Source: Synergistaceae bacterium | GTDB taxonomy: Bacteria; Synergistota; Synergistia; Synergistales; Aminobacteriaceae | NCBI GenBank assembly: GCA_017448795.1 | Contig: JAFSKV010000043.1 | Coordinates: 1 to 40,586 of the forward strand | Direction: 5' to 3' | Length of the DNA stretch: 40,586 nt | Shown: in pieces, positions 4,619-20,121 of the stretch | Layout of the letters: each line of letters opens with the position of its first letter | Numbering within the stretch: the first letter of the stretch is position 1 | Notes under the pieces: generated by a model | Database searches by the model: none | What the model was told of the DNA's origin: nothing | What the model saw: only the letters and a program-made list of their open reading frames with translations | Position numbers and translations under genes: made by a program

Positions 4619-5800
4619 ATGACTAACGAAATGTACGAAGCATACGGAAAAATTTTCGGCTCTGACACAGACACAGAGTCATTCTTCTCGCCGGGAAGGG
4701 TAAACCTGATCGGCGAACACACAGACCATGAAGGCGGCTACGTATTCCCCTGCGCAATAGGATTCGGGATTCACGCCCTCGCCCGGAAAAACTCATCCGG
4801 CAAACTCAGGCTCTACTCACTCAACTTTGACCGCGAATATGACTCACCCTTTGAGATCGAGTACAACGCCATCACAGACAAGCTCACCGCCCCGCGCTCA
4901 TGGGTGAATTACCCTCTCGGTGTCGCAAAGATTCTCATGAAGCACGGCCGCAATCTCACATCAGGCCTCGATATTCTCTACAGCGGCAACCTACCGGACG
5001 GCGCAGGACTCTCATCGTCAGCAGCCCTTGAAGTCCTCACAGTCAGAATCTTCAGCGACCTATTAGGCCTCAATATCGACGGGGTGAAAGCGGCTCTGTA
5101 TTCACAGGAAGCGGAGAATGATTTTGTCGGGATGCACTGCGGAATAATGGACCAGTTCGCCGTAAGCATGGGCAGAAAGAATCACGCAATCCTCCTCAAC
5201 TGCTCAACCCTCGAATACTCATACGCCCCCGTTAAACTGGACAGCCACAAAATCATCATCACAAACTCACACGTGCCTCATTCCCTCGTAGGGAGCGAGT
5301 ACAACCTACGCCGACAGCAATGTGAACAGGCATTAGCCGACATCAGGAAGGTGCGCGAAGTCTCCTGCCTCTGCGGCTTGTCCCCGAATGAGCTCGATGA
5401 AGTGTCTTACGCCGTCAAAGACCCCGTGAACCTGCGCCGGGCTCTTCATGCTGTCAGCGAGAACGCGAGGGCTAAACGTGCCGCCGAGTCCCTAAAGGCC
5501 GGGGATCTTGGTACGTTCGGGCGGCTCATGAATGCGTCTCACGTGTCATTGCGCGACAATTACGAGGTTACCGTCCAGGAGCTTGATGTTCTTGCGTCTC
5601 TTGCGTGGGAATTTCCCGGTGTCGTCGGCTCAAGGATGACGGGAGGAGGATTCGGGGGCTGTACTGTGAGCATCGTGGAGAATGACAGGGTGAAGACGTT
5701 TGTTGACCATGTCGGCGCGGAATATGAGCGTCTCACAGGAAGGAAGGCCAGCTTCTACGAGACCGAAATATCGGACGGTGCCGGGAAAATCGCGGGATGA
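4619..5800 (+). CDS. galK: Galactokinase
   Basis: Phosphorylates alpha-D-galactose at C1 with ATP, the first committed step of the Leloir pathway in the cytoplasm. The 393-residue length is normal for GalK. Visible GHMP-kinase features are the galactokinase signature GRVNLIGEHTDHEGGY (about 26-41), the ATP-binding GAGLSSSAALE (about 127-137), the catalytic Asp in GIMDQFA and the C-terminal GGGFGGCTV (about 341-349). The start has GGAGG seven bases upstream. No other Leloir gene is nearby. Instead galK lies directly behind a toxin-antitoxin pair, so its expression may be subject to that operon's autoregulation (inference). Confidence 0.96.
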   Translation: MTNEMYEAYGKIFGSDTDTESFFSPGRVNLIGEHTDHEGGYVFPCAIGFGIHALARKNSSGKLRLYSLNFDREYDSPFEIEYNAITDKLTAPRSWVNYPLGVAKILMKHGRNLTSGLDILYSGNLPDGAGLSSSAALEVLTVRIFSDLLGLNIDGVKAALYSQEAENDFVGMHCGIMDQFAVSMGRKNHAILLNCSTLEYSYAPVKLDSHKIIITNSHVPHSLVGSEYNLRRQQCEQALADIRKVREVSCLCGLSPNELDEVSYAVKDPVNLRRALHAVSENARAKRAAESLKAGDLGTFGRLMNASHVSLRDNYEVTVQELDVLASLAWEFPGVVGSRMTGGGFGGCTVSIVENDRVKTFVDHVGAEYERLTGRKASFYETEISDGAGKIAG

Positions 5801-7629: not shown

Positions 7630-8175
7630 TTACCCCCGCGACGCAAGGAAGCTGAGTGCCTTCTCCAGCCTCGCAAAAGGTTCAAGGATGTCCATAGTTG
7701 CCGCCGCCTCTGTCAGGATTGCCCCCGTCTGCTGGACTTCCTCCGGCCTTATCCCGCCGGGAAATTCCGCCCTGAACGGCGCGCCGTTGGTGTTGGCCTG
7801 AATCAGGAACACCCCAGGGTCTGCTGTCGTCTCAATATGCCCTGCCGCCTCAAGGGGGACATGCGGGGACTCCTCAAGCAGGACTGACTTCACCCGGCTC
7901 TTCTCACGCAGGGGGGCGAGAATGTCAGGGTCATTGCAGATCCAAAGCTGCGGGTCAGTCTCCACCGCGTCAAGAAGGCTCTCAAGTATGAGCTTCTCCT
8001 TCGCGTACTTCCCGAAAGACTCGCCGTAAAGTATCCGTGAAAGCTGGTCAGGCCTCAGCGGGTCAGTCCTCACAAAGTCGACAGGAAACCCCTTCGCGTC
8101 AGTAACAAGAGCCCCCCCGCGAATCTGCGTCTCCGTCCCGTCTATCATGATGTAGCCAAGCGCGTTGTTCGCCAT
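7630..8175 (-). CDS. Hypothetical cytoplasmic protein, 181 residues
   Basis: I do not recognise this protein. It is acidic, soluble and lacks membrane segments. The N-terminal 50 residues (GYIMIDGTETQIRGGALVTD, then a segment ending LRPDQLSRILYGESFG) look like alternating strands, and the C-terminal third is helical. The start is well supported by GGAGGGG nine bases upstream. It lies 18 bases after the divergent aspartokinase paralogue and 2 bases before the next unknown gene, so the three are almost certainly one transcript. A functional link to the aspartokinase paralogue is possible but not shown by the sequence. Confidence 0.75.
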   Translation of the reverse strand: MANNALGYIMIDGTETQIRGGALVTDAKGFPVDFVRTDPLRPDQLSRILYGESFGKYAKEKLILESLLDAVETDPQLWICNDPDILAPLREKSRVKSVLLEESPHVPLEAAGHIETTADPGVFLIQANTNGAPFRAEFPGGIRPEEVQQTGAILTEAAATMDILEPFARLEKALSFLASRG

Positions 8176-8193: not shown

Positions 8194-9516
8194 TCAGTGC
8201 AGCATCATAGCCCCGTACAATGCCCGCACGGTGGCTTCATAGTCTTCATCGTACACTCCGATTATTATGTTGAGGTCGTCGCTTCCCTGCTCAATCATCC
8301 TCACCTTTATTCCCGCGTCGGCGATTGCGTCAAACATCTTCGCGAATATCCCCTTGACCGTCCCCATCCCCTTGCCTACTACCGTGATGAGGGACAAGTT
8401 CTTCTCGACGGTGATGTTCTCAGGTTTTATCGCGTCATTGAGGGCGGCCAGAATCTCAGCCCGCTTCAGGTCAAAGAGCGGGTTCTTCACGACGATGGAG
8501 AAGCGGTATATCCCCGACATGTAATGCTCGCAGGAGATGTTGCGCTCCGTGAATATGCCGAACACCTTCATTCCGATTCCAGTAAGGCGGTTGAGGCCGA
8601 ATTTCTCTATGTGGATTATCCTGTAGTTGCGCTTCCCGGCGATGCAGGCGGCGACTCCGCGCTTTGAGTCCGCAGGGAGCTCCGATGTTACGATTGTGCC
8701 AGGGTCGCTCGTGTCGTTGATGTTGCGGACGCTTACGGGGATGCCTATATCCTGCATGAGCAGTATAACGTCCTCGTGGAATATGTTGATGCCCATGTAC
8801 GTCAGCTGCTTGAGTTCCTCGTAGGTTATCTGCCTTATGACTTCCGGGTTCCCGACAATGCCGGGGTCCGCGCTGTAGATTTTGGTGGTCTCGCTCCATT
8901 TCTCGCACAGTGATGCTTTCACGGCACGGGCGACTATGGCGGCGGTGATGTCGGCCCCTCCCCTGGGGAACAGCTTTATCGTGCTTCCTCCTGATGACCC
9001 GTAGAAGCCCGGTATGACGGCGTGGTCTGTCTCGGCGAAAATCTTTTCTGCGGCGGCAAATGTCTTCTCACGGTCAAGAGTCCCGTCCTTCGCGAAAAAT
9101 ATGAAGTCTGCCGCGTCGATGAACTCCCAGCCGATATATTCCGCGAAAATCTTTGCCATGATATGCTCGCCCCTGCTGACGACATAATCATTACCGCGCC
9201 CGAAAAACAGGTTCTTCTTCAGGTTCATGATTTCAGCGTCAAGGTAGAAATTCACGCCTATACCCCGTATGAGGGTGCTGAATTTATCGCGGACATTGCT
9301 CATCATCTCGTCGAAATTCTCGCGGTTGGTGTAGCGGGCATTCATGATGAACAGCATATCGGTAACCTTCACGTCCTCGCGTGAGATTCCGCCCGGTGCT
9401 GAGACTATGACATACCGCCGGTTAGGGTCTGACATCAGGATGTCGGCTGTCTTCTGTATCATCTCAGGAGTCGAGAAAGCCGCGCTCCCGAACTTCGATA
9501 CAATTACATCGCTCAT
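8194..9516 (-). CDS. Aspartokinase paralogue with altered N-terminal nucleotide-binding motif
   Basis: A 440-residue homologue of aspartate kinase, the enzyme that phosphorylates L-aspartate at the head of lysine, threonine and methionine synthesis. It has the amino-acid kinase fold and two C-terminal ACT domains (LITVVGKGMGTVKGIFAK ... RMIEQGSDDLNIIIGV). It is clearly related to the second aspartokinase at 9619..10944 but diverged at key places. The hallmark KFGGTS is KFGSAAF (residues 8-14), and SRGGSD is PRGGAD. The Lys, the SRGE glutamate and the RGG...D residues remain. It may be a regulatory subunit, an enzyme with altered kinetics or specificity, or inactive; the sequence cannot decide. 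An intrinsic terminator separates it from the dap operon, and it heads its own unit with two unknown genes. Confidence 0.85.
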   Translation of the reverse strand: MSDVIVSKFGSAAFSTPEMIQKTADILMSDPNRRYVIVSAPGGISREDVKVTDMLFIMNARYTNRENFDEMMSNVRDKFSTLIRGIGVNFYLDAEIMNLKKNLFFGRGNDYVVSRGEHIMAKIFAEYIGWEFIDAADFIFFAKDGTLDREKTFAAAEKIFAETDHAVIPGFYGSSGGSTIKLFPRGGADITAAIVARAVKASLCEKWSETTKIYSADPGIVGNPEVIRQITYEELKQLTYMGINIFHEDVILLMQDIGIPVSVRNINDTSDPGTIVTSELPADSKRGVAACIAGKRNYRIIHIEKFGLNRLTGIGMKVFGIFTERNISCEHYMSGIYRFSIVVKNPLFDLKRAEILAALNDAIKPENITVEKNLSLITVVGKGMGTVKGIFAKMFDAIADAGIKVRMIEQGSDDLNIIIGVYDEDYEATVRALYGAMMLH

Positions 9517-9583
9517 AACAACTCACTTCCTACTATGTACGTGAATGGGAAATATGACAGCTGTAAATTATAACCGTCAGGCC

Positions 9584-9610
9584 AAAAAAATACCCCCATA
9601 TTTCAGGGGG
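9584..9610 (-). terminator. Intrinsic terminator of the dap/aspartokinase operon
   Basis: On the minus strand CCCCC (9610-9606), an 8-base loop and GGGGG (9597-9593) are followed by a U-tract (9590-9584). It lies 9 bases past the stop of the canonical aspartokinase. A TATAAT at 9572-9567 just beyond it could be the -10 of the next gene, but no good -35 is visible. Confidence 0.8.
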
Positions 9611-9618
9611 ATTTGCCG

Positions 9619-10944
9619 TTATTGCTGCTGAATCATCGCGCTGTATAGAGCCTTTATTGAGGTCTCATAGTCTGAGTCGTCAACACCGATTATGATATTC
9701 AGCTCGTCCGACCCCTGGTCAATCATCCTTATGTTTACCCCGGCACCCGCAAGCGCACCGAAAACTTTTGCCGCCGTTCCTCTTGCGCTCACCATTCCCT
9801 CGCCGACCACAGCAATAGCCGCAAGGTTCTTCTCTATCGTGATGAAGTCGGGGGATAACTCGTTCTTGATTTCGCGGAGTATCTCCTCACGTTTTGAGTC
9901 GAAAGCCGAGCTGTTCACCACAACGCTTATCGTGTCGATTCCTGTCGGGCAATGCTCAAAGGGGACTCCGTTTCGTGCGAAAATGTAGAGCAGTCTTGCG
10001 CCGAACCCTGTCTCACCGTTCATCTGGGACTTCTCCACGCGGATTGACGTGAAGCCCTTGCGCCCGGCGATTCCTGTTACGGGGCTGCGCTTGATGTCAG
10101 CGGGAATTGAGGCGGCTATGAGCGTTCCGGGGTCGTCAGGGGAATTTGTGTTGCGTATGTTGATGGGGATTCCGGCCTTCCTCACGGGGAACACAGCATC
10201 CTCATGAAGCACGCTCGCCCCCATGTATGACAGCTCACGGAGCTCGGTGTAGGTGATGTGCGCTATCGTGCGGGGGCGGTCGACGATTCGCGGGTCAGCA
10301 CTGAGCATCCCTGATACGTCGGTCCAGTTCTCGTAGATGTCGGACTGTGTGGCTCTTGCGACGATTGAGCCTGTTACGTCAGATCCTCCGCGTGAGAATG
10401 TCTTTATCACCCCGCGGGGCATTGAGCCGTAGAAGCCGGGTATAACCGCGTTGGGGATGTCCCGGAGCCTCGCGCTCATGGTCATGAATGTCTGCTCGCC
10501 GTCAAAGTTCCCGTTCTCGTCAAAGAAGATGACTTCAGCCGCGTCGACGAACTCCCAGCCCAGGAACTCAGCTATGATTTTGCTGTTGAGGTATTCTCCC
10601 CTGCTTGCGAGGTAATCTGCCGGGGGGTAGTAGCGTAACTCGTTCTCTATGGCCTCGATTTCCGCCCCAACGTCAAACTTGATTCCCAGCTCCGAGACTA
10701 TTTCCGCGTAACGAGCCTTGATTTTCGCCAGCGTCCCGGAATACTCGTCGCCCTTCGCAAATTCGCTGTAGCAGCTGTAGAGCAAATCTGTAACCTTGAT
10801 GTCCGCGCTGAATCTCTTACCCGGTGCTGAGGCTACGACATATCTTCTTTCAGGGTTGGACTTGATGATTTCCGCGACCTTCCGAATCTGTGATGCGTCA
10901 GCTAGTGATGTTCCGCCGAATTTTGCCGTGATTGTCCTGCTCAT
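9619..10944 (-). CDS. lysC: Aspartate kinase (canonical copy)
   Basis: Phosphorylates L-aspartate to 4-phospho-L-aspartate with ATP. All diagnostic motifs are present in 441 residues: AKFGGTSLADA (residues 7-17), APGKRFSADIKVTDLLY, SRGEYLNSKI, FSRGGSDVTGSIVARA, SADPRIV, and two C-terminal ACT domains (AIAVVGEGMVSARGTAAKVF ... NIRMIDQGSDELNIIIGV) that normally bind lysine or threonine for feedback control. It is the last gene of the dap operon, 70 bases after the deacetylase gene, and is closed by an intrinsic terminator. AGGAGA precedes the ATG. The first seven codons are duplicated 74 bases upstream (10995-11017). The presence of ACT domains in a dap operon suggests lysine feedback (inference). 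Confidence 0.96.
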   Translation of the reverse strand: MSRTITAKFGGTSLADASQIRKVAEIIKSNPERRYVVASAPGKRFSADIKVTDLLYSCYSEFAKGDEYSGTLAKIKARYAEIVSELGIKFDVGAEIEAIENELRYYPPADYLASRGEYLNSKIIAEFLGWEFVDAAEVIFFDENGNFDGEQTFMTMSARLRDIPNAVIPGFYGSMPRGVIKTFSRGGSDVTGSIVARATQSDIYENWTDVSGMLSADPRIVDRPRTIAHITYTELRELSYMGASVLHEDAVFPVRKAGIPINIRNTNSPDDPGTLIAASIPADIKRSPVTGIAGRKGFTSIRVEKSQMNGETGFGARLLYIFARNGVPFEHCPTGIDTISVVVNSSAFDSKREEILREIKNELSPDFITIEKNLAAIAVVGEGMVSARGTAAKVFGALAGAGVNIRMIDQGSDELNIIIGVDDSDYETSIKALYSAMIQQQ

Positions 10945-11017
10945 GCCGATTCTCCTGTAGTGTTGTGATGATGTTCCGCCGTCTCTTTTGCGCTTTTTGC
11001 CGTGATTGTCCTGCTCA
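10921..11017 (-). repeat. 23-bp direct repeat duplicating the aspartokinase start
   Basis: The 23 bases at 10921-10943 (codons 1-8 of the canonical aspartokinase, minus the first A) recur exactly at 10995-11017, an offset of 74 bases. The upstream copy also has an AGGAGA-type ribosome-binding site and a TTG in place of ATG, and reads in frame for about 25 codons to a stop. It overlaps the last codon and stop of the deacetylase gene. It looks like a remnant of a duplicated or moved gene start. Confidence 0.85.
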
Positions 11018-12163
11018 ATTTATATCTCCTGTCTTGTTGTAGTTGTATGCTGATGATGAGTGCATGGCCGCCGCCGTGATGATTGCTTCCGGGACGGGAA
11101 GGAACTTGTCCGAGTGCAACGGGTATCCGCAGCCCGCGCCGATGTGGTAGAAGCAGCCTGTCTTTGCGATGATGTAGCTTCCGAAATCCTCGCTGATGAA
11201 CAAGGGACGCTCTATTATGTCGACCCTAGAGTCCCCGAAAGTCTCACGGGCTGAACGCTCGCACATGGCCGTGATAGTGTCGTTGTCGTTGACGATTCCC
11301 ACGCAAGAGTCGGTAATCTCACACTCAGACTTTGCCCCGAATCTCCCCGCAACGTCAGCACAAACCGCTTCAAGCTGTCTGCACATGGCCGAACGTTTTT
11401 CGAGTCCGTAAGTCCTGATTATCCCGGCCAGTTCCGCCCGCCCGGCAAGTATGTTGTTGGCTGTCCCTGCGTGGAACATTCCGACGCTGACGACTCCGCC
11501 CGGTATCCTGAGAATCTCCGGGACAATATGGGAGGCTGCTTCTATGCTGTCGATTCCCTTGTCCCTCTGCGCGCCGTGTGCTGACTTGCCGATTACGTTC
11601 ACCTTCCACGTAGCTGAAGCCGCGTAGAAGTCCCCGTACTTTATCCCGACATGCCCGGCCGGAAGTGCAGGGTCAACATGACACCCGAATACCGCCCCGA
11701 CTCCCTCAAGGCAGCCTGCCGCAATCATCCTGTCAGCCCCGCCGTCGCCTTCCTCGTTGGGCTGGAAGATGAATGTTACAGAGCCGGGAAGCTCGTCTTT
11801 GTGGGACTGTAGGATCATCGCCGCCCCCAATGCCCCCGTTATGTGAACGTCATGGCCGCAGGCGTGCATCATTCCGGGATTCTTGCTGGCGAAGTCGCAC
11901 CCTGTAGCCTCATTCACCGGGAGCGCGTCAATATCTGACCTTACAGCGCAGTGATTACCCGGCAGTTTCCCGTCAACCCTCGCAATAATCCCTGTGCCTA
12001 TCACCCGCCTGTGAGGAATCCCGGTCATGTCAAGATACTTCTCGATGAGCTCGGCTGTGTGAAATTCGTGGTCGCCTATTTCCGGGTTACGGTGGAACTC
12101 CCTGCGCATCCCGGTGAGTTTGTCCCGGAGCTTTTCGGCCTCGTCAAGAAAGTTTATCGTCAT
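11015..12163 (-). CDS. M20-family N-acetyldiaminopimelate deacetylase
   Basis: Removes the acetyl group from N-acetyl-LL-2,6-diaminopimelate in the acetylase branch of lysine and cell-wall diaminopimelate synthesis. M20D amidohydrolase features are visible: RREFHRNPEIGDHEFHT near the start, the metal ligands in MMHACGHDVH, the catalytic and ligand Glu pair in PNEEGDGGADRMI, a further His in FGCHVDP, the dimerisation motif KSAHGAQ, and a late ligand near GYPLHSDKF. The ATG at 12163 is chosen because AAGGAAG precedes it and because the longer frame runs back through the end of dapH. The substrate is inferred from its position after dapH; the family also includes hippurate and auxin-conjugate hydrolases. 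Names in use are dapL and dapEL. Confidence 0.9.
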   Translation of the reverse strand: MTINFLDEAEKLRDKLTGMRREFHRNPEIGDHEFHTAELIEKYLDMTGIPHRRVIGTGIIARVDGKLPGNHCAVRSDIDALPVNEATGCDFASKNPGMMHACGHDVHITGALGAAMILQSHKDELPGSVTFIFQPNEEGDGGADRMIAAGCLEGVGAVFGCHVDPALPAGHVGIKYGDFYAASATWKVNVIGKSAHGAQRDKGIDSIEAASHIVPEILRIPGGVVSVGMFHAGTANNILAGRAELAGIIRTYGLEKRSAMCRQLEAVCADVAGRFGAKSECEITDSCVGIVNDNDTITAMCERSARETFGDSRVDIIERPLFISEDFGSYIIAKTGCFYHIGAGCGYPLHSDKFLPVPEAIITAAAMHSSSAYNYNKTGDIN

Positions 12164-12165
12164 CC

Positions 12166-12864
12166 CTATATCTTCCTTAGTGATTCCTGCAAGGCTGTTT
12201 TGAGGGTAGTATTGCTGTCCTTGTCCTTGATGACTCTGGCAGGGCATCCGGCAACAACCTTACCCGGCGCAACGTCCTCAATCACAACAGCTCCCGCCGC
12301 GACCACAGCCCCAGCACCGATTCTGACTCCCTCAATGACGACAGCATTCGCCCCGACAAGCACACCATCTTCCACTACAACGGGTTTTGCCGACGCTGGC
12401 TCAATGACTCCCGCAAGAACCGCCCCCGCTCCGATGTGGCAGTTTTTGCCGACAGTGGCACGGCCTCCGAGAACAGCCCCCATGTCTATCATTGTCCCCT
12501 CGCCGACTATTGCCCCGATGTTGAGGACTGCCCCCATCATTATGACTGCGTTGCGGCCGATTGATACGTTGTCGCGGATTATCGCGCCCGGCTCTATTCT
12601 CGCCGGAATGTCCTTCATGTCGAGAAGGGGAATAGCGCTGTTCCTTGCCGAGTTCTCAATCACTATGTCGGCTATCTTGTCCCGGTTAGCGTCAATCACC
12701 GGCTGAAGCTCCGTCCAGTCGCCGAATATGACCTTGTCGCCAGCCCCGAAAATTTTCGCGTTAGTCCCGGTGAAGTCGACGGGGGATTTCTCCTTGAGGT
12801 AAATCTTGACGGGGGTAACCTTCTTCGCGTCTGCTATGAACCTGATGATTTCCTGCGCGTCCAT
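12166..12864 (-). CDS. dapH: Tetrahydrodipicolinate N-acetyltransferase
   Basis: Acetylates 2,3,4,5-tetrahydrodipicolinate with acetyl-CoA, committing carbon to the acetyl route of diaminopimelate. The N-terminal 90 residues are the DapH-specific domain ([20 protein letters not shown]). From about 100 onward there are hexapeptide repeats of a left-handed beta helix ([53 protein letters not shown]) ending in [22 protein letters not shown] lies 5 bases before the ATG at 12864. A GTG at 12873, three codons earlier and overlapping the dapB stop, is an alternative start. The next gene begins 2 bases after its stop. A succinyltransferase (DapD) is unlikely given the DapH-type N-terminus. Confidence 0.94.
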
Positions 12865-12865
12865 G

Positions 12866-13606
12866 TCATTCACCCGCTATGTAGTCAGCCATGCCGTAGA
12901 GTCCCGGCTTCTGACCGATGAGCCATTTCGCCGCCGACAATGCACCCTTCGCGAACAATGCCCGGTTCTTAGCGTCATGCCGGATTGTGATGGTCTCCAG
13001 CCCGTTGGAGAATATGACCTCATGAGTCCCGACTTCAGTACCGTAACGCAAAGAATGAATGCCGATCTCTGAGGGTGAACGCCTGCCGTTTTCGTGCCTG
13101 CCGATGTTGAGACTTGAGCCTTCTCTTGCTGACTGTATGCGCTTGGCGAGCATTAGGGCTGTACCGCTGGGAACGTCTAACTTCTGGTTGTGGTGAGCCT
13201 CTATCATCTCCACGTCACAATCACCGAAGAGCCGGGCTACCCTTTCCGCCACGTCAGCAACAAGTGCCACGCCTACCGACATATTAGGCGATATGAACAC
13301 GGGGATTTTCCCGGAGGCTTCACGGATTATCGCTGTCTCATCATCTGTCTGTCCTGTTGACGCTATGAGGATCGGGAGATTCCGCCTGACACAGTAAGAC
13401 GTTACGGCCTGAGCCGCTGTGTGGTGGCTGAAGTCGATTACTATATCCGCGTCCCCTGTGAAGTCATCCAGCGCGTGATACTTCCCTTCCACGGTCGTAA
13501 AAGCAACGTCAACCAATGCCGCAACACTCACACCGTCCGTATTCCCGGCCATGTCCGCGAGCATATGCCCCATTTTCCCGCCCGCACCGTTGATGATTAT
13601 CTTCAT
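12866..13606 (-). CDS. dapB: 4-hydroxy-tetrahydrodipicolinate reductase
   Basis: NAD(P)H-dependent reductase that acts directly after DapA. The N-terminal Rossmann motif is INGAGGKMG (residues 5-13). The catalytic and substrate-binding block [15 protein letters not shown] holds the conserved His pair, Lys and Ser-Gly-Thr. IDFSHHTA and ISPNMSVGV are further family signatures. At 246 residues it has the normal length. It starts 2 bases after the dapA stop and ends 1 base before the preferred dapH start, so it is translationally coupled on both sides. Confidence 0.96.
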
Positions 13607-13608
13607 GT

Positions 13609-14496
13609 CTACAGTAGCCCCTGCTCCTTCATGAGTGAGAACAGTTTTTCGCGGTGAGCGGCCTCCATAGGCACAAGAGGAAGCCTCAAGCAGTCCTCAC
13701 AGAATCCCATTGCTGACATTGCGGCCTTGACGGGGATGGGGTTTGTCTCACAGAAAAGCGCGTTGATGAGCGGGAGATACCTGCACTGCAATTCCGCCGC
13801 ACCCTTCACGTCCCCGGCAAAGAATCGTTCGCAGATTTCCATTGTCTGCTTGGGCGCGGGGTTCGACAGCACTGAGATCACTCCGAGTCCTCCCATCGAG
13901 AGAATCGGGACTATCTGGTCATCGTTGCCCGAATACATGTCCATTCTGTCGCCGATGAGCTGGGCTGTGTGAACTATCTTGCTGATGTTGGAATTTGCTT
14001 CCTTGATGCCCTGAATCATTGGGTGATATGAGAGTTTCTCGTAGGTTTCCGGCTCAATGTTTATGCCCGTGCGTGAGGGGACGTTGTAGAGGATGATGGG
14101 CTTTGTTGACGCGTCGGCGATTGTCTCATACATTTTGACGAGTCCGCCCTGAGTTGTCTTGTTGTAGTAGGGGGTAACACACAGCATTGCATCAGCCCCG
14201 GCATCACAGCAGTACTTAGTGAGCTGGACGGCATAAGCTGTATCGTTGGACCCGGTCGCGGCGATAACTACGCACCTTCCTGCGATTCTGTCGACTGCGT
14301 ACTTCACTACCGCTTTGTGTTCGGTGTCATCGAGGGTTGAGCCTTCACCGGTTGTGCCTGCGATTACGAGGGCGTTTATTCCCTGCTCACACTGCCAATC
14401 TATGAGCCGTCCGAATGCGTCATAGTCGACACCGCTGGCGTTCATTGGGGTGATGAGGGCTGTTGCGACTCCGCGGAAAATGGGCTTGTCTGTCAT
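13609..14496 (-). CDS. dapA: 4-hydroxy-tetrahydrodipicolinate synthase
   Basis: Condenses pyruvate with aspartate semialdehyde, the first step of the diaminopimelate/lysine branch. It is a class I aldolase TIM barrel of 295 residues. Visible residues are Thr48-Thr49 in AGTTGEGS, Tyr137 in LYNVPSRTG with Arg142, and the Schiff-base Lys165 in IQGIKEAN. The start at 14496 has AAGGAGAG eight bases upstream; a start ten codons earlier would bury this site and is rejected. It is the first gene of a five-gene operon (dapA, dapB, dapH, deacetylase, aspartokinase). A consensus promoter and a leader with an intrinsic terminator lie in front of it, so premature termination probably controls the whole operon. 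Confidence 0.97.
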   Translation of the reverse strand: MTDKPIFRGVATALITPMNASGVDYDAFGRLIDWQCEQGINALVIAGTTGEGSTLDDTEHKAVVKYAVDRIAGRCVVIAATGSNDTAYAVQLTKYCCDAGADAMLCVTPYYNKTTQGGLVKMYETIADASTKPIILYNVPSRTGINIEPETYEKLSYHPMIQGIKEANSNISKIVHTAQLIGDRMDMYSGNDDQIVPILSMGGLGVISVLSNPAPKQTMEICERFFAGDVKGAAELQCRYLPLINALFCETNPIPVKAAMSAMGFCEDCLRLPLVPMEAAHREKLFSLMKEQGLL

Positions 14497-14526
14497 AAGA
14501 ATATCTCTCCTTGTCATGATGCGCAC

Positions 14527-14758: not shown

Positions 14759-14784
14759 CTTTGCGGCCATGTCTGCGGGATAAT

Positions 14785-14813
14785 TTGACACCGCAAACTT
14801 TACATGTTTTAAT
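14785..14813 (+). promoter_or_regulatory. Promoter of the Tp47-like surface protein gene
   Basis: TTGACA (14785-14790), a 17-base spacer and TTTAAT (14808-14813). The gene starts 40 bases after the -10 box. It is back to back with the dap promoter. Confidence 0.75.
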
Positions 14814-14853
14814 TACCCAACAAACCAATCTATCAATAAGGAGATGCAGTGCC

Positions 14854-17800
14854 ATGAAACGGGCAGGCAGATTATTGTTTGTGCTGACTCTTGCGCTGGC
14901 TTTAGGCGTTGGGGCGGCTAATGCGTCCGATTACGTGTATGTTACTACAAACATGACGTGGACGGAATTTTACGCGGGGGAACTGGGAGCTTCGGCCTCA
15001 GACCTGGCGGTGAGCTATGACGCGGTGTCAACGGCGACACAGAGATTCATCACACGCTTCAACGGCTTCACGTCGGAACTCTCAGGGGACGGGACAGTGT
15101 TTGACGGTGTGAAGAATGTGCAGGTCCGAATGACGGATGAAGTGTACGCGGGCCTCACGGACACCTCGCGCTTCTCTGCTCCAATCACCGGGACATTCAG
15201 CGAGTACAAGGAGATGGACGCGGCCGGGAATTTCGGGGAAATGGTTACGGAGATTGTTGACGCGAACGCAAAAATTCCGGCTCTCACCGTGTCAGTATCA
15301 GGCGGGAAATCAACAGGACACGGCAATTACCGCCTCACGATTTCGGGACTGAGCTATGACGTTCTCGGCGCGAATCTCGGCACAAGCAACGATAACTTTC
15401 TCGGCGCAAAACTTGAGGCTTCTGACGGGACTGTTTACGGGCTGAAGCCCCTGCATAACTTGTGGATACGCGGGAACATGGCCGAACAGATCGGCTTCAG
15501 CGTCAAGGACTTCACCGAACGCAACGGGACTCACCTCTCTTACGCTCACACAGCCAACCTGCCGGGAAAAACTATCACAAGCATCACATACATGCTCAAG
15601 AATCAGCCCGACATTGTCATAACGTGTAACCTTCCTGTGAAGCTCTGGACGGAAGCAGCCGTAACAGCCGCAAGCATCAAGTCCGGCGCAAACGCTGTAG
15701 CCTCGTTCACGTTCAGCGGCATTCCTGACGGGGCATCGTACGCGCTCTCATCAGTCGCAAAAGTCGAAGGCAGAACATCAACACCCCTCACAGCCGGGAC
15801 AGATTACACTTACGCTGACGGAAAACTCACCTTCACGAACGCACAGGCCGGGACTTACACCGCAACATTCACGGATGACTCGTATGTCGACATTGCGGCA
15901 ACCATCACAGTAACAGACTACTACGCGACCACAAATATGACATGGGCGGAGTTCTACGCGGGCGAAACAGGGCAGTCATCCTCCGAGCTCCTAGCGGCCG
16001 GGCTTGACGCAATAAGCACCCCGACTGTGAACGGGATAAGCCGCTTCCCCCTCGTCAACAGCGTATCAGGAGACAGCGGAAGTACCCTCTACGGTCCGAA
16101 AGCCGTCAAAGTCAGAATGACCGGGGATGTTTACGGGGCATTGTCCGACAAATCACGCTACACTTTCACGGATGAGGCATTCACTGAGTACAAGGCAGTA
16201 AGCGCGGATGGCTCATTCGGGAAGCTCGTTACTGAGACTGAGGAAGCATCAGGTGCAGCCGTGAAGATGGCTACAGGCTCTAGCGCAAGGTGGGGACATT
16301 ACGTCATCAGCGTATCAGGAGGCAGCGTAGACATTGGCACAAGCGGCGACAAAATAGCCCGGAATTACCGCGGGGTGCTGCTTGAGACTTCGGACGGGAA
16401 AATCTACGGGATGCGCCACGACAATAACATTTGGAGCAACACAGATATTGCCTTCACGGTCAGCGGGAATTACACCGAGCCTCACGGTACAGGGGTCAAG
16501 AGATTCCACGAGTACACAAGCGACATGGCCGGGAAAACCATCACCAGGATAACCTACATGCTGGAAGGCCTGCCGGATGTCGTGATAGGAAGCCTCGACC
16601 TTTACGTCAAGCCCATAACAAGCGCGAGCGTCAAGCCTGAGACTGTTTACCCCGCCGGAAGCAATGTGCCGGTGAAGTTCGTGTTCTCCGATGTGCCGGA
16701 TGATGCGGGATATGTCTTGTCGTCAGTCTCCCAGGGCTCAGGGAGGAACAGCAAGACCATAACCGATTACACTTATGCTGACGGAGTCCTGACAATCGCC
16801 GGGAATCTCGAAATCGGCACTTACTCGGCAGCCTTCACGAGTGCGAAATACGCGGACATTTCGGCAACAATAACCGTGATGAAGTTCGCCGCAACCGATA
16901 TGACCTGGGCAGAATTTTACGCGGGTGAGGTCGGCATTTCTTCCGCTGACCTGCTAACGGCCGGGCTTGATGCCATCTCATCACCGACAGCAAGAGTCGC
17001 CAGCCGCTTCACACAGCTCACGAGTGAGTCCAATGACATTGGCGGGCGCGACATCACAGGGGTCAAGGCTGTGCAGGTTGCGTTCACTACACAGTCGGCG
17101 TATCTGGCTCTCAGCAATGACTCACGCTTCACGTTCACGGATGAGACATTCATGCAGTACAAGCCCGTGAACTCTGACGGCTCATTCGGCGCAATGGTCG
17201 GTGAGACTCAGGCAATGGATGACGCTGAAGTAACACTCTCAAGCGGTGCAAGCTCAACATGGGGCAATTACACGCTGAATATTACCGGGCTTGAAGGACT
17301 CGTGATTTCCAGCGGGGACGAGAATTATTACTTGGGAGCAGTGCTTGAGACTTCTGACGGGGCAAAATACGGACTCCGCCACAATAATAATCTCTGGTTC
17401 AGCGCGGGAACAGTAGCGGCAACAGTGAATGACAAGTACGCAGAGCCCCACGGGGTAACACGCGGCTACAAGTACACGGCAGGCCTCGAAGGAAAGACCG
17501 TAACACGGATAACCTTCCTCCTCAAGAACCAGCCGAGCGCGGTAGTGAACTGCTCAGTCCTCCTAAAGAAAATGGCCGGCTCGACCGTCGCACTGTCAGC
17601 TGATGTGAAAGCGGGCGTGAATGTCCCTGTTCCGTTCACGTTCGGGAATCTCCCTGACGGCGTCACGTACACGTTGAAGGCCCTGTATTCCGGGACAGGA
17701 AGAGGACGCACCCCCATCACGGATTACACGTACACGGGCGGGACTCTCACGGTGAACGGGACGCTTCCGGCCGGGACGTACCAAGCCATTTTCGGGACGG

Positions 17801-20121
17801 ATGATTACGCGGATATAGGCGTGGTGTTCGAGGTTGAGGACACGTACCACTACGCTACAACCGACATGACCTGGGCGGAGTTTTACGCCGGGGAACTGGG
17901 GGAGTCCTCCGCTGACCTTTACGCTGCCGGGCTGGACGCAATATCTTCACCGACGGCACGAGTCGCGACGAGATTCACACAGCTCACCAGCGAGTCCAAC
18001 GACATCGGCGGAAGAAGCATCACAGGAGTCGCGGCGGTTCATGTGAGGATGAATGAGGCTGTCTACCAGGCCATGAGCGGGGACTCACGGTTCACGTTCA
18101 CGGATGAGGCCTTCAGCGAGTACAAGGACGCTGACGCAGGCGGCTCATTCGGCAGGATGGTTACTGACACGCACGTTCAGGAGGGCGCGACTGTATCACT
18201 CACTTCACCGGGGACTTGGGGCGACTACCAGCTCTCAGTCTCAAGCATTGACGTAACAGTCTCAAGCGGCGATGAATATTACTATCTTGGCGCAGTCGTT
18301 GAGACCTCTGACGGCAAACTTTACGCCATGAGGCACAACAATAACCTGTGGTTCAGCGCGAAGGACTTGGCCTTGTCGACCGCCGAATTTGTCGAGCCTC
18401 ACGGTGTATCACGCTCTTACGCCTACACTTCAGACATGGAGGGCAAGACGGTAACCCGCATCACCTACATGCTGAAAGATTTACCAGACGAGATTGTGAG
18501 CTGTGATGTGTTCCTGAAGCTCAAGACAAGCGCGAGTGTCGCCCCCAAATACGAGGACGGGTATCACGCATTCCCGGAGGGCGTAAACCTTCAAGTCCCC
18601 CTCGTGTTCAGCAACGTCCCGGCAAGCGCGGATTACTCACTCTCAGGTGTAACATCCGGCACAGGGCGCAGCCGCCAGGCAGTCCCGGGATGCACGATGT
18701 CGGGCGATGTCCTCACGATTTCCGGCGATGTGGGCGAGGGCACGTACACCGCGACATTCACGGATGACACCTACGCGAACATAGCGGCAACGATAAACGT
18801 CTACACGACCAGCGCGAACAGCAAGATCATTTCCGCCGACAAGAACGCCGCGGGACTCTCCTTCCTCCTCACGCCCAGGGGAGTCAGCGACGCAACGAAC
18901 GCGGTTCTTGAGGCTCAGAATTTCGTCAACGCCACAGAGTACACCGTTATAGCCAGCAACGACACAGCGACATACACGGCAGGCCAGAACCAGATTTCCG
19001 GGTCAGGCTTCACGCTCAATGTCGCGCTCAAGGACGTTCCTTCGGGGAAGCGGGGCATTCTCGGCTTCAGCCACATGTTCACGATTACCCCTGCGGCAAT
19101 CGGCCAGAATGATTTTGCGGCCATGATGAGCAAAGTTACCGCGCTCCCAGATGTCGCTTACGGCTGGAGAGTCCCGGACGGCGACCAGCTCAGGGACATG
19201 GGGCTGATAGTTGTGGGAGTTTACCCGGACGGTGTATCACGCGACATTACGGACTGGATTTCGAGCGGGCTTCTTCCTTCTGACGGGGCAATCATGATGT
19301 CGTTCGGGACTGTTCTTGTTGACCGTGAGTTCACCCCCTCCGAAGAAGGCAAGACCTACGCTCTCTCGGACGAAGGCGAAGGCACAATGAGCGACGGTGC
19401 ATCTGACGGGAAAATCACAGCGACATGGTACGTGAGGACACCGGGCGGCAACTCCAGCAGTGATGACCCGACACCCACGCCGACGCCGACACCGACACCG
19501 ACGCCCACGCCCACGCCCACGCCGGCTCCGACTCCAGACTCTGGCGACAACAGCGGCGGCAGCACCAGCACGACAACACCGGGCAGGCCTTCGTTCACGC
19601 TGACTGACATAAGGAAAGCAGGCATCAGAGAGTCACTCGGAAAACTCAGCGGCAAGGTTACAGGCACAACAGAAGTCGAAACGCTCCCGGCAACGGCCCT
19701 CATCGGAACCCGGTCAGCAGCAAGCGCAGACTCGGCGGTGTACCTTCCTGTAATCGAGGTCAGCGAGTCAAAAGTGTATGTATTCGGCGTGTCTCTGGAC
19801 AAGTTCGCGGCGGGCCTTCCGCTTCACTGGCACTCAAACGCCACTGACACGGCAACGGGGGAATTTGTTGACGCGGCGGACGATGACGAGGCCGTGATCT
19901 TCATGAACGACAGCGGAGAGGAAGTTGCAGCAGTCCCGGTGAACAAGCACGTGAATGTTGCGGCTTACCTTGAGACAGGCAGGACATATTCGCCGACAAT
20001 AACGACGACTTCGGATCAGCCCGGCGGAGTCGGAAGCTCAAGCGGGGGATGCTCGTCATTGGGCGGGATTTTCACGGCGGCGCTTCTGGGGCTGGCCCTG
20101 GTTTTCACGCGCAGGAAGTAG
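14854..20121 (+). CDS. Giant exported protein with four Tp47-like units and Synerg-CTERM anchor
   Basis: A 1755-residue protein. The ATG at 14854 has AAGGAG ten bases upstream and begins a signal peptide (MKRAGRLLFVLTLALALGVG, cut near ANA-SD). Four units of about 320 residues start near residues 29, 356, 677 and 998. Each opens with a YATTDMTWAEFYAGELG-type motif followed by DAIS.PTAR...RF. This strongly recalls the start of Treponema pallidum Tp47 (YATLSYADYWAGELGQS), a penicillin-binding lipoprotein; each unit closes with a small Ig-like subdomain. A unique domain (about 1320-1535), a Pro-Thr linker, a membrane-proximal domain and a C-terminal SSGGCSSLGG, hydrophobic segment and RRK follow. 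That end is the Synerg-CTERM sorting signal. It is probably cell-surface anchored. The ligand is unknown; penicillin binding must not be assumed. An intrinsic terminator follows. Confidence 0.9.
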   Translation: MKRAGRLLFVLTLALALGVGAANASDYVYVTTNMTWTEFYAGELGASASDLAVSYDAVSTATQRFITRFNGFTSELSGDGTVFDGVKNVQVRMTDEVYAGLTDTSRFSAPITGTFSEYKEMDAAGNFGEMVTEIVDANAKIPALTVSVSGGKSTGHGNYRLTISGLSYDVLGANLGTSNDNFLGAKLEASDGTVYGLKPLHNLWIRGNMAEQIGFSVKDFTERNGTHLSYAHTANLPGKTITSITYMLKNQPDIVITCNLPVKLWTEAAVTAASIKSGANAVASFTFSGIPDGASYALSSVAKVEGRTSTPLTAGTDYTYADGKLTFTNAQAGTYTATFTDDSYVDIAATITVTDYYATTNMTWAEFYAGETGQSSSELLAAGLDAISTPTVNGISRFPLVNSVSGDSGSTLYGPKAVKVRMTGDVYGALSDKSRYTFTDEAFTEYKAVSADGSFGKLVTETEEASGAAVKMATGSSARWGHYVISVSGGSVDIGTSGDKIARNYRGVLLETSDGKIYGMRHDNNIWSNTDIAFTVSGNYTEPHGTGVKRFHEYTSDMAGKTITRITYMLEGLPDVVIGSLDLYVKPITSASVKPETVYPAGSNVPVKFVFSDVPDDAGYVLSSVSQGSGRNSKTITDYTYADGVLTIAGNLEIGTYSAAFTSAKYADISATITVMKFAATDMTWAEFYAGEVGISSADLLTAGLDAISSPTARVASRFTQLTSESNDIGGRDITGVKAVQVAFTTQSAYLALSNDSRFTFTDETFMQYKPVNSDGSFGAMVGETQAMDDAEVTLSSGASSTWGNYTLNITGLEGLVISSGDENYYLGAVLETSDGAKYGLRHNNNLWFSAGTVAATVNDKYAEPHGVTRGYKYTAGLEGKTVTRITFLLKNQPSAVVNCSVLLKKMAGSTVALSADVKAGVNVPVPFTFGNLPDGVTYTLKALYSGTGRGRTPITDYTYTGGTLTVNGTLPAGTYQAIFGTDDYADIGVVFEVEDTYHYATTDMTWAEFYAGELGESSADLYAAGLDAISSPTARVATRFTQLTSESNDIGGRSITGVAAVHVRMNEAVYQAMSGDSRFTFTDEAFSEYKDADAGGSFGRMVTDTHVQEGATVSLTSPGTWGDYQLSVSSIDVTVSSGDEYYYLGAVVETSDGKLYAMRHNNNLWFSAKDLALSTAEFVEPHGVSRSYAYTSDMEGKTVTRITYMLKDLPDEIVSCDVFLKLKTSASVAPKYEDGYHAFPEGVNLQVPLVFSNVPASADYSLSGVTSGTGRSRQAVPGCTMSGDVLTISGDVGEGTYTATFTDDTYANIAATINVYTTSANSKIISADKNAAGLSFLLTPRGVSDATNAVLEAQNFVNATEYTVIASNDTATYTAGQNQISGSGFTLNVALKDVPSGKRGILGFSHMFTITPAAIGQNDFAAMMSKVTALPDVAYGWRVPDGDQLRDMGLIVVGVYPDGVSRDITDWISSGLLPSDGAIMMSFGTVLVDREFTPSEEGKTYALSDEGEGTMSDGASDGKITATWYVRTPGGNSSSDDPTPTPTPTPTPTPTPTPTPAPTPDSGDNSGGSTSTTTPGRPSFTLTDIRKAGIRESLGKLSGKVTGTTEVETLPATALIGTRSAASADSAVYLPVIEVSESKVYVFGVSLDKFAAGLPLHWHSNATDTATGEFVDAADDDEAVIFMNDSGEEVAAVPVNKHVNVAAYLETGRTYSPTITTTSDQPGGVGSSSGGCSSLGGIFTAALLGLALVFTRRK
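14932..18810 (+). repeat. Four tandem ~965-bp coding repeats (Tp47-like units)
   Basis: Units begin near 14935, 15918, 16882 and 17846, as seen from the recurring encoded motif MTWxEFYAGE. Units 3 and 4 are the most alike, but all have diverged at the nucleotide level, so the duplications are old or under selection at protein level. Confidence 0.85.
19468..19532 (+). repeat. Pro-Thr linker microsatellite
   Basis: Hexanucleotide-like repeats of ACGCC(C/G) and ACACCG encode about ten Pro-Thr pairs between the surface domains and the anchor domain. A closely similar repeat encodes Pro-Thr at the left edge of the window (1-24). Confidence 0.85.

Follow-up and report, generated by a model that had tools for sequence, protein, structure and literature searches.

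A diverged aspartokinase-like gene behind the dap operon of a Synergistaceae bacterium: a putative pseudokinase and candidate partner of the canonical enzyme

Introduction

Catalytically dead paralogues serve as regulators of other biosynthetic enzymes, for example HisZ, which regulates short HisG through a mixed assembly. Aspartokinases themselves have ACT-only beta subunits, which we take to be non-catalytic, ACT-bearing chains that are made from internal translation starts and act with the catalytic aspartokinase. No account of a dead aspartokinase paralogue emerged from our literature search, most subscription literature being outside its scope. Here we describe a candidate for such a paralogue, AK2, which lies directly behind the canonical aspartokinase gene AK1 on a 40,586-nt stretch of DNA (the window) from a Synergistaceae bacterium (contig JAFSKV010000043.1, assembly GCA_017448795.1; genome labelled G000). 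A first-pass annotation of this DNA had located both copies on the correct strand:

8194-9516, minus strand: AK2, aspartokinase-like putative pseudokinase of 440 aa, with an amino-acid-kinase domain and an ACT region
9619-10944, minus strand: AK1, canonical aspartokinase, last gene of the dap operon and proposed partner of AK2

On balance, we favour the reading that AK2 belongs to a pseudokinase family whose members probably bind aspartate and are ACT-regulated, with AK1 as the likely partner of AK2 and with a second group, beta1, in an analogous role for the enzymes of 3-deoxy-D-manno-octulosonate (Kdo) synthesis. Judged from sequence, regulatory partner of AK1 is the best-supported reading for AK2, because it has lost its ATP contacts, evolves under purifying selection, stands in tandem with AK1 in 16 genomes and has distances that track those of AK1. 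The first-pass annotation had suggested a regulatory partner, through which the pathway might respond to a second amino acid. Partnership suits AK2 on these grounds and is too narrow for the family: a sister clade in the Kdo operon makes the picture wider than an AK1 partner.

The active site of AK2

AK1 and AK2 align over 440 residues without gaps, at 42% identity. AK1 has the motifs KFGGTS, SRGGSD and WTDVSG and scores 528.5 bits against the NCBIfam aspartate-kinase model NF006540, above the cut-off of 434, whereas AK2 scores 372.4 and falls below it. Two of the motif changes in AK2, KFGSAA and PRGGAD, had been recognised at the outset; the altered positions are as follows:

9478-9495, minus strand: KFGSAA, codons 8-13, replacing KFGG[ST]S
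8950-8967, minus strand: PRGGAD, codons 184-189, replacing SRGGSD; R and D are retained and the serine (LysC Ser201) is lost
8881-8898, minus strand: WSETTK, codons 207-212, replacing WTDVSG and altering the positions of LysC Thr221 and Asp222
8860-8862, minus strand: Gly219, replacing the basic residue at the position of LysC Arg232
8506-8508, minus strand: Tyr337 in ACT1, replacing an Asp that is invariant in canonical rows and adjoining the LysC effector residues

Residue roles were taken from two papers on LysC. According to the first, Glu119 and Arg198 form salt bridges with aspartate, and Ala40, Thr45, Glu119, Phe184 and Ser201 touch it (PMC5481828). According to the second, aspartate is bound by Arg198 and Ser201 and ATP by Thr221 and Arg232, Asp222 is a key catalytic-site residue, and Ser345 and Glu346 are effector residues (PMC3195717). 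The aspartate positions 40, 45, 119, 184, 198 and 201 of LysC correspond to AK1 positions 40, 52, 117, 171, 185 and 188 (Thr45 being paired with T52 by motif and not by HMMER), and the ATP positions 221, 222 and 232 to 208, 209 and 219. At the positions of T221, D222 and R232 of E. coli LysC, AK2 has S, E and G, respectively; the R232 position is that of the arginine of the ADPR motif. With WTDVSG rewritten as WSETTK and the ADPR arginine gone, the published ATP contacts are therefore lost in AK2, while most aspartate contacts remain (five of the six, Ser201 being Ala). The first-pass annotation had stated that AK2 keeps its ACT domains and other active-site residues. The latter are not all kept; as for the former, ACT_9 is matched in both AK1 and AK2, and a structural model includes the ACT region.

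That model, built with AlphaFold2 (AF2) from 16 window and named-locus sequences, has a predicted local distance difference test score (pLDDT) of 87.8 and a predicted template-modelling score (pTM) of 0.82. It has the form of a full aspartokinase with a C-terminal ACT part, and speaks for an intact fold only. The best solved matches are aspartokinases, the nearest being 3tvi (Z 44.2, root-mean-square deviation 2.8, 437 residues aligned).

A diverged clade within one genus

A phylogeny, proposed with the first-pass annotation as a check for a conserved second clade, did recover one. Of 185 genomes of the phylum searched, 51 matched at E <= 1e-60, and the window's genus comprises 43 genomes. The 150 non-redundant reading frames collected were placed in a maximum-likelihood tree of 151 rows by a quick method, with one outgroup row (PDB 3tvi). 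All 69 diverged rows form a single clade with a Shimodaira-Hasegawa-like approximate likelihood ratio (SH-aLRT) support of 100, and all come from the window's genus. We divide them into 35 alpha rows, which comprise the orthologues of AK2 and the rows nearest to these, and 34 beta rows; the border between the two and the deeper forks are partly open in the tree. Derived states run through the whole clade, namely N206K (66/67), G291C (68/69) and A391F (64/66). Rows from other genera all carry canonical motifs, among the 185 phylum genomes at the same threshold; no sensitive search of other phyla was made. A search of the 43 genus genomes with AK1 (E <= 1e-20) returned the same set and a few end fragments. 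A pattern-based scan of genome contigs with AK2 gave 10 loci, all in Synergistaceae, Synergistales or Fretibacterium metagenome-assembled genomes (MAGs); the hosts named were ruminant and other gut Synergistaceae or Fretibacterium MAGs.

Of the 43 genus genomes, 35 have diverged copies, with alpha in 34 and beta in 26. Conservation of alpha in 34 genomes argues against chance or sequencing error, and the motif changes of AK2 are, on the alignments and tree, real and part of an old, selected family. Eight genomes have no diverged copy (G056, G062, G067, G072, G074, G076, G077 and G081), and the genus can therefore do without these genes. In seven genus genomes no AK1 was found; three of these (G047, G057 and G073) have diverged copies and are 64-89% complete, and the other four also have no diverged copy. 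In one MAG (G079:C130, L144:1333-2632), AK1 is split across two overlapping frames, by a frameshift or an assembly error. The window genome has five genes of aspartokinase type: AK1, AK2, a canonical copy adjoining homoserine dehydrogenase (Hom-AK), and two further diverged copies, of which the first stands beside kdsA and kpsF/kdsD (contig C5) and the second beside a LytTR regulator (C23).

The basal alpha row, from G044 (G044_C65_2459), keeps KFGGSS, RGGSD and WTD, lacks the basic residue at 219 and exceeds the cut-off of the aspartate-kinase model; its sequence suggests an intermediate that may be active. This row lends something to the view that AK2 is an ordinary isozyme, still active as an aspartokinase despite its motif changes and feedback-controlled in its own way; the retention in AK2 of the fold, of K8, R185 and D189 and of most aspartate contacts does likewise. 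We consider this view distinctly unlikely, however. Every canonical-uniform position among S13, S188, T208, D209 and the basic residue at 219 is altered in AK2, and of seven diverged copies scored with NCBIfam, six, among them AK2, lie under 434 bits (298.9-405.8), only the basal row exceeding it.

Residue conservation across the clade

The pattern seen in AK2 extends to its relatives. ATP positions are kept at 240/240 in canonical rows (R, K or H being counted at 219) and at 17/201 in diverged rows (alpha 13/99, beta 4/102), whereas the six aspartate positions are kept at 475/475 and 316/400, respectively (alpha 147/196, beta 169/204). Leaving Ser201 aside, the aspartate positions are kept at 78/80 in tandem alpha and 90/90 in beta1. 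In the N-terminal loop, S13 is kept in 9/67 rows and G11 is S in 17/33 alpha rows. Relative to AK1, alpha has diverged most in the C-lobe (ratio 2.96 versus 1.25-1.68 elsewhere, in the 29 genomes with both). In ACT1, D337 is Y or H in 65/68 diverged rows, next to the positions of LysC Ser345 and Glu346. As far as alignment can tell, this rewritten effector region fits a changed ligand and points to no particular one.

Some of the new residues are themselves conserved, not random: besides N206K, D209E is found in 51/67 rows and K or R at 212 in 29/34 beta rows, and alpha keeps K8 and D189 in 33/33 rows each. Such a pattern could be expected of a neofunctionalised kinase that still transfers or binds phosphate with another donor or acceptor, K206, E209 and K212 rebuilding the donor site. 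Against this stand the replacement of K8 by R in 20/34 beta rows and of G187 by D in 28/34, and the loss of the basic residue at 219 in 65/67 diverged rows. Moreover, seven alpha rows linked to galT have an eroded aspartate site too (18/40 kept), and remain under purifying selection with both sites eroded. We regard a neofunctionalised kinase as fairly unlikely.

Purifying selection on the diverged copies

In 16 genome pairs, the ratio of non-synonymous to synonymous substitution rates (dN/dS) was 0.037-0.141 for alpha (13 computable pairs) and 0.046-0.122 for AK1 (12). Values for the Hom-linked copy were 0.030-0.109 and those for beta 0.059-0.238 (12 values, some between non-orthologous copies). 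Reading frames are intact save for contig-edge pieces and one split copy. The diverged copies, with dN/dS far below 1, are therefore not decaying genes; intact frames and dN/dS together rule out a pseudogene or sequencing error. Duplicates on their way to loss would account for the eight genomes without diverged copies and for the faster change of alpha (mean distance 0.57 versus 0.30 for AK1). They do not fit the selection data, the conserved new residues or an operon insertion that is conserved in 16 genomes, and their probability is close to negligible. Loss of catalytic-site residues under purifying selection, the mark of a pseudoenzyme, is what AK2 displays at the sequence level. In the galT-linked alpha pairs, dN/dS is 0.068, 0.079 and 0.091 with both sites eroded; something other than catalysis is therefore selected there.

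AK1 as the likely partner of AK2

In 16 genomes the AK2 orthologue follows AK1 immediately, after a spacer of 15-310 bp. Across 21 genomes, the partial correlation of alpha with AK1 distances, given Hom-AK, is 0.52, and none of 2000 label permutations was as high. It rises to 0.84 in the tandem genomes (n=13; 0/2000 permutations as high) and is 0.66 in the non-tandem genomes (n=8; 11/2000). The corresponding partial correlation of alpha with Hom-AK, given AK1, is 0.20 in the 21 genomes, 0.11 in the tandem and 0.10 in the non-tandem set.

The spacer itself differs between groups of genomes. In G046, G061, G063 and G071 it measures 15-21 bp and has no T-run, and AK1 and AK2 are therefore probably co-transcribed there. 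The first-pass annotation had seen a terminator between the two genes of the window, and a strong GC hairpin followed by a T-run does recur at the same spot in nine loci of the window's subgroup, the window included:

9593-9609, minus strand: terminator-like hairpin and T-run in the AK1-AK2 spacer, seen in 9 loci of the subgroup

Terminator-like matches as such were not enriched in a scan of the region (7, against a shuffle mean of 7.7). A riboswitch or attenuator between AK1 and AK2 was considered and rejected, as Rfam returned only a tRNA in the window.

Several points weigh against the favoured reading, in which AK2 is a pseudokinase and AK1 its partner. The co-evolution signal rests on a single control gene, Hom-AK, and common ancestry may explain part of it. 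Of the 34 genomes with alpha, 17 have it away from AK1 in the assembly, some of these copies lying at contig edges, and one more has it 2.9 kb off. Given the terminator-like site in the window's subgroup, co-transcription would enforce no fixed subunit ratio there. As for the pocket, the residues that AK2 keeps (K8, G10, R185 and D189) and the conservative nature of the T-D to S-E change make residual or altered nucleotide binding possible, and the loss in nearly all rows of Ser201, a direct aspartate contact, makes retained aspartate binding uncertain. With the basal G044 row, the clade includes a possibly active member. Finally, beta1 distances show no preference for AK1 (partial 0.36 with AK1, 0.29 with Hom-AK), and we therefore do not claim AK1 as the partner of beta1.

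Beta1 in the Kdo operon and other neighbourhoods

Of the 18 beta1 rows, 16 are inserted between kdsA and kdsD, with all genes on one strand in the order fba-kdsA-X-kdsD-kdsB and with adjoining frames within 61 nt; the outer genes are absent or cut at the contig edge in some of these loci, and in G053 a short frame of 99 aa belonging to the kdsD cluster stands before the full-length one. The two remaining rows, from G059 and G064, are located elsewhere. In the window genome, the copy in the Kdo operon (G000:C5, L147:3800-5170, minus strand) has neighbours that exceed NCBIfam cut-offs for fba, kdsA, the kpsF family and kdsB. In gene places copied from the phylum searches, kdsA and kdsD share a contig and strand in 57 genomes. 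The gap between them is longer than 1 kb (1357-1686 bp) in exactly the 16 with beta1 between, and the other 41 of these pairs have no insert and a gap of 1-240 bp.

Other diverged copies have neighbourhoods of their own. The third copy of the window genome (G000:C23, L148:3604-4929, minus strand) is followed directly by genes for a LytTR response regulator and a GHKL sensor kinase, and a LytTR regulator of the same cluster adjoins four beta rows. Alpha copies away from AK1 adjoin class II galT in seven genomes (L032:2827-4305 and six related loci).

Such clade-specific neighbourhoods, kept at kdsA-X-kdsD, galT and LytTR alike, would suit stand-alone amino-acid sensors that act through the co-encoded proteins (Kdo enzymes, LytTR/GHKL or GalT) and not through AK1. 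Alpha distances follow AK1 even outside the tandem, however, and the AK1-alpha tandem is the largest group of genomes; we judge stand-alone sensors very improbable.

A proposed mechanism

The simplest mechanism would be that of a pseudokinase with fold and ACT region retained, perhaps with aspartate binding as well, that acts by assembly with an enzyme, likely AK1 in the case of AK2. The dap-operon aspartokinase would have duplicated within the genus, giving rise to a pseudokinase family that then multiplied. AK2 would not phosphorylate aspartate; paired with AK1 in mixed dimers joined by the ACT domains, it would shift the effector response of AK1, and its own pocket may still sense aspartate. 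Beta1 would be an analogous adaptor for the co-encoded Kdo enzymes. A broader scheme has the family acting as aspartate-gated adaptors in general, AK2 setting the flux to diaminopimelate (peptidoglycan) and beta1 the synthesis of Kdo (lipopolysaccharide, LPS), with both envelope precursors matched to aspartate supply; we think this unlikely and offer it tentatively.

The ordered loss in the clade, from a near-intact basal row through loss of the ATP contacts to one branch that has lost aspartate contacts too, makes it a good system for studying how an allosteric enzyme is converted into a regulator. An aspartokinase relative in the Kdo operon, if truly a regulator of Kdo enzymes, would link amino-acid supply to LPS synthesis.

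Neighbouring genes in the window

The minus-strand unit reads dapA-dapB-dapD(acetyl)-M20 deacetylase-AK1, then AK2, and AK1 indeed ends the dap operon, as first annotated. Its other genes, and the gene that follows AK2, are:

13609-14526, minus strand: dapA (TIGR00674, above cut-off)
12866-13606, minus strand: dapB (TIGR00036, above cut-off)
12166-12873, minus strand: dapD, acetyl type (TIGR03532, above cut-off)
11015-12247, minus strand: M20 amidohydrolase, probable N-acetyl-diaminopimelate deacetylase of the dap operon
7630-8175, minus strand: 181-aa gene 3' of AK2, a genus-wide neighbour not judged part of the AK2 system

After AK2 come two genes without family matches, an S1-domain gene and a DUF501 gene. 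The two unknown genes had been grouped with AK2, a grouping that the wider sample speaks against: the 181-aa gene occurs in 40 of the 43 genus genomes, among them all eight that lack diverged copies, and beyond the window's subgroup it mostly stands on contigs other than that of alpha. At the alpha loci of the subgroup it is accompanied by the 195-aa, S1 and DUF501 genes. The two unknown genes are probably unrelated neighbours.

Also near AK2 is a galactokinase gene (4619-5800, plus strand), whose link to the galT-adjoining alpha copies is possibly coincidence; a gene for a ParE-type toxin (PF05016; 4337-4606, plus strand) is immediately upstream of it. Positions 14761-20121 (plus strand) encode a repetitive, probably exported 1786-aa protein that ends in a Gly/Cys-rich stretch, a hydrophobic helix and a basic tail, an ending that we take to resemble the Synergist-CTERM sorting signal. 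A similar tail is found on a protein adjoining the Hom-linked aspartokinase (L005).

Comparison with known systems

Among described aspartokinases, AK2 is most like the PRK09034 (NF006540) type represented by 3tvi of Clostridium acetobutylicum, with which it shares the full-length fold, 36-37% identity and the ACT region; it differs from that type in lacking the ATP-contact residues and in scoring below the curated cut-off. The ACT-only beta subunits (Thermus 2dt9/2zho; Pseudomonas 5yei) are chains of 147-153 residues, whereas AK2 is a separate, full-length gene of 440 aa that keeps the kinase domain and is not an internal-start product. TIGR02078 (AspKin_pair), a putative aspartate kinase subunit of Pyrococcus, is likewise a second aspartokinase-like gene named as a subunit, but AK2 reaches 68.4 bits where the family cut-off is 242.4; the lineage differs, and presumably the layout as well. 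HisZ and HisG have another fold and serve another pathway, whereas AK2 would be a dead paralogue of the regulated enzyme itself, with relatives in another operon.

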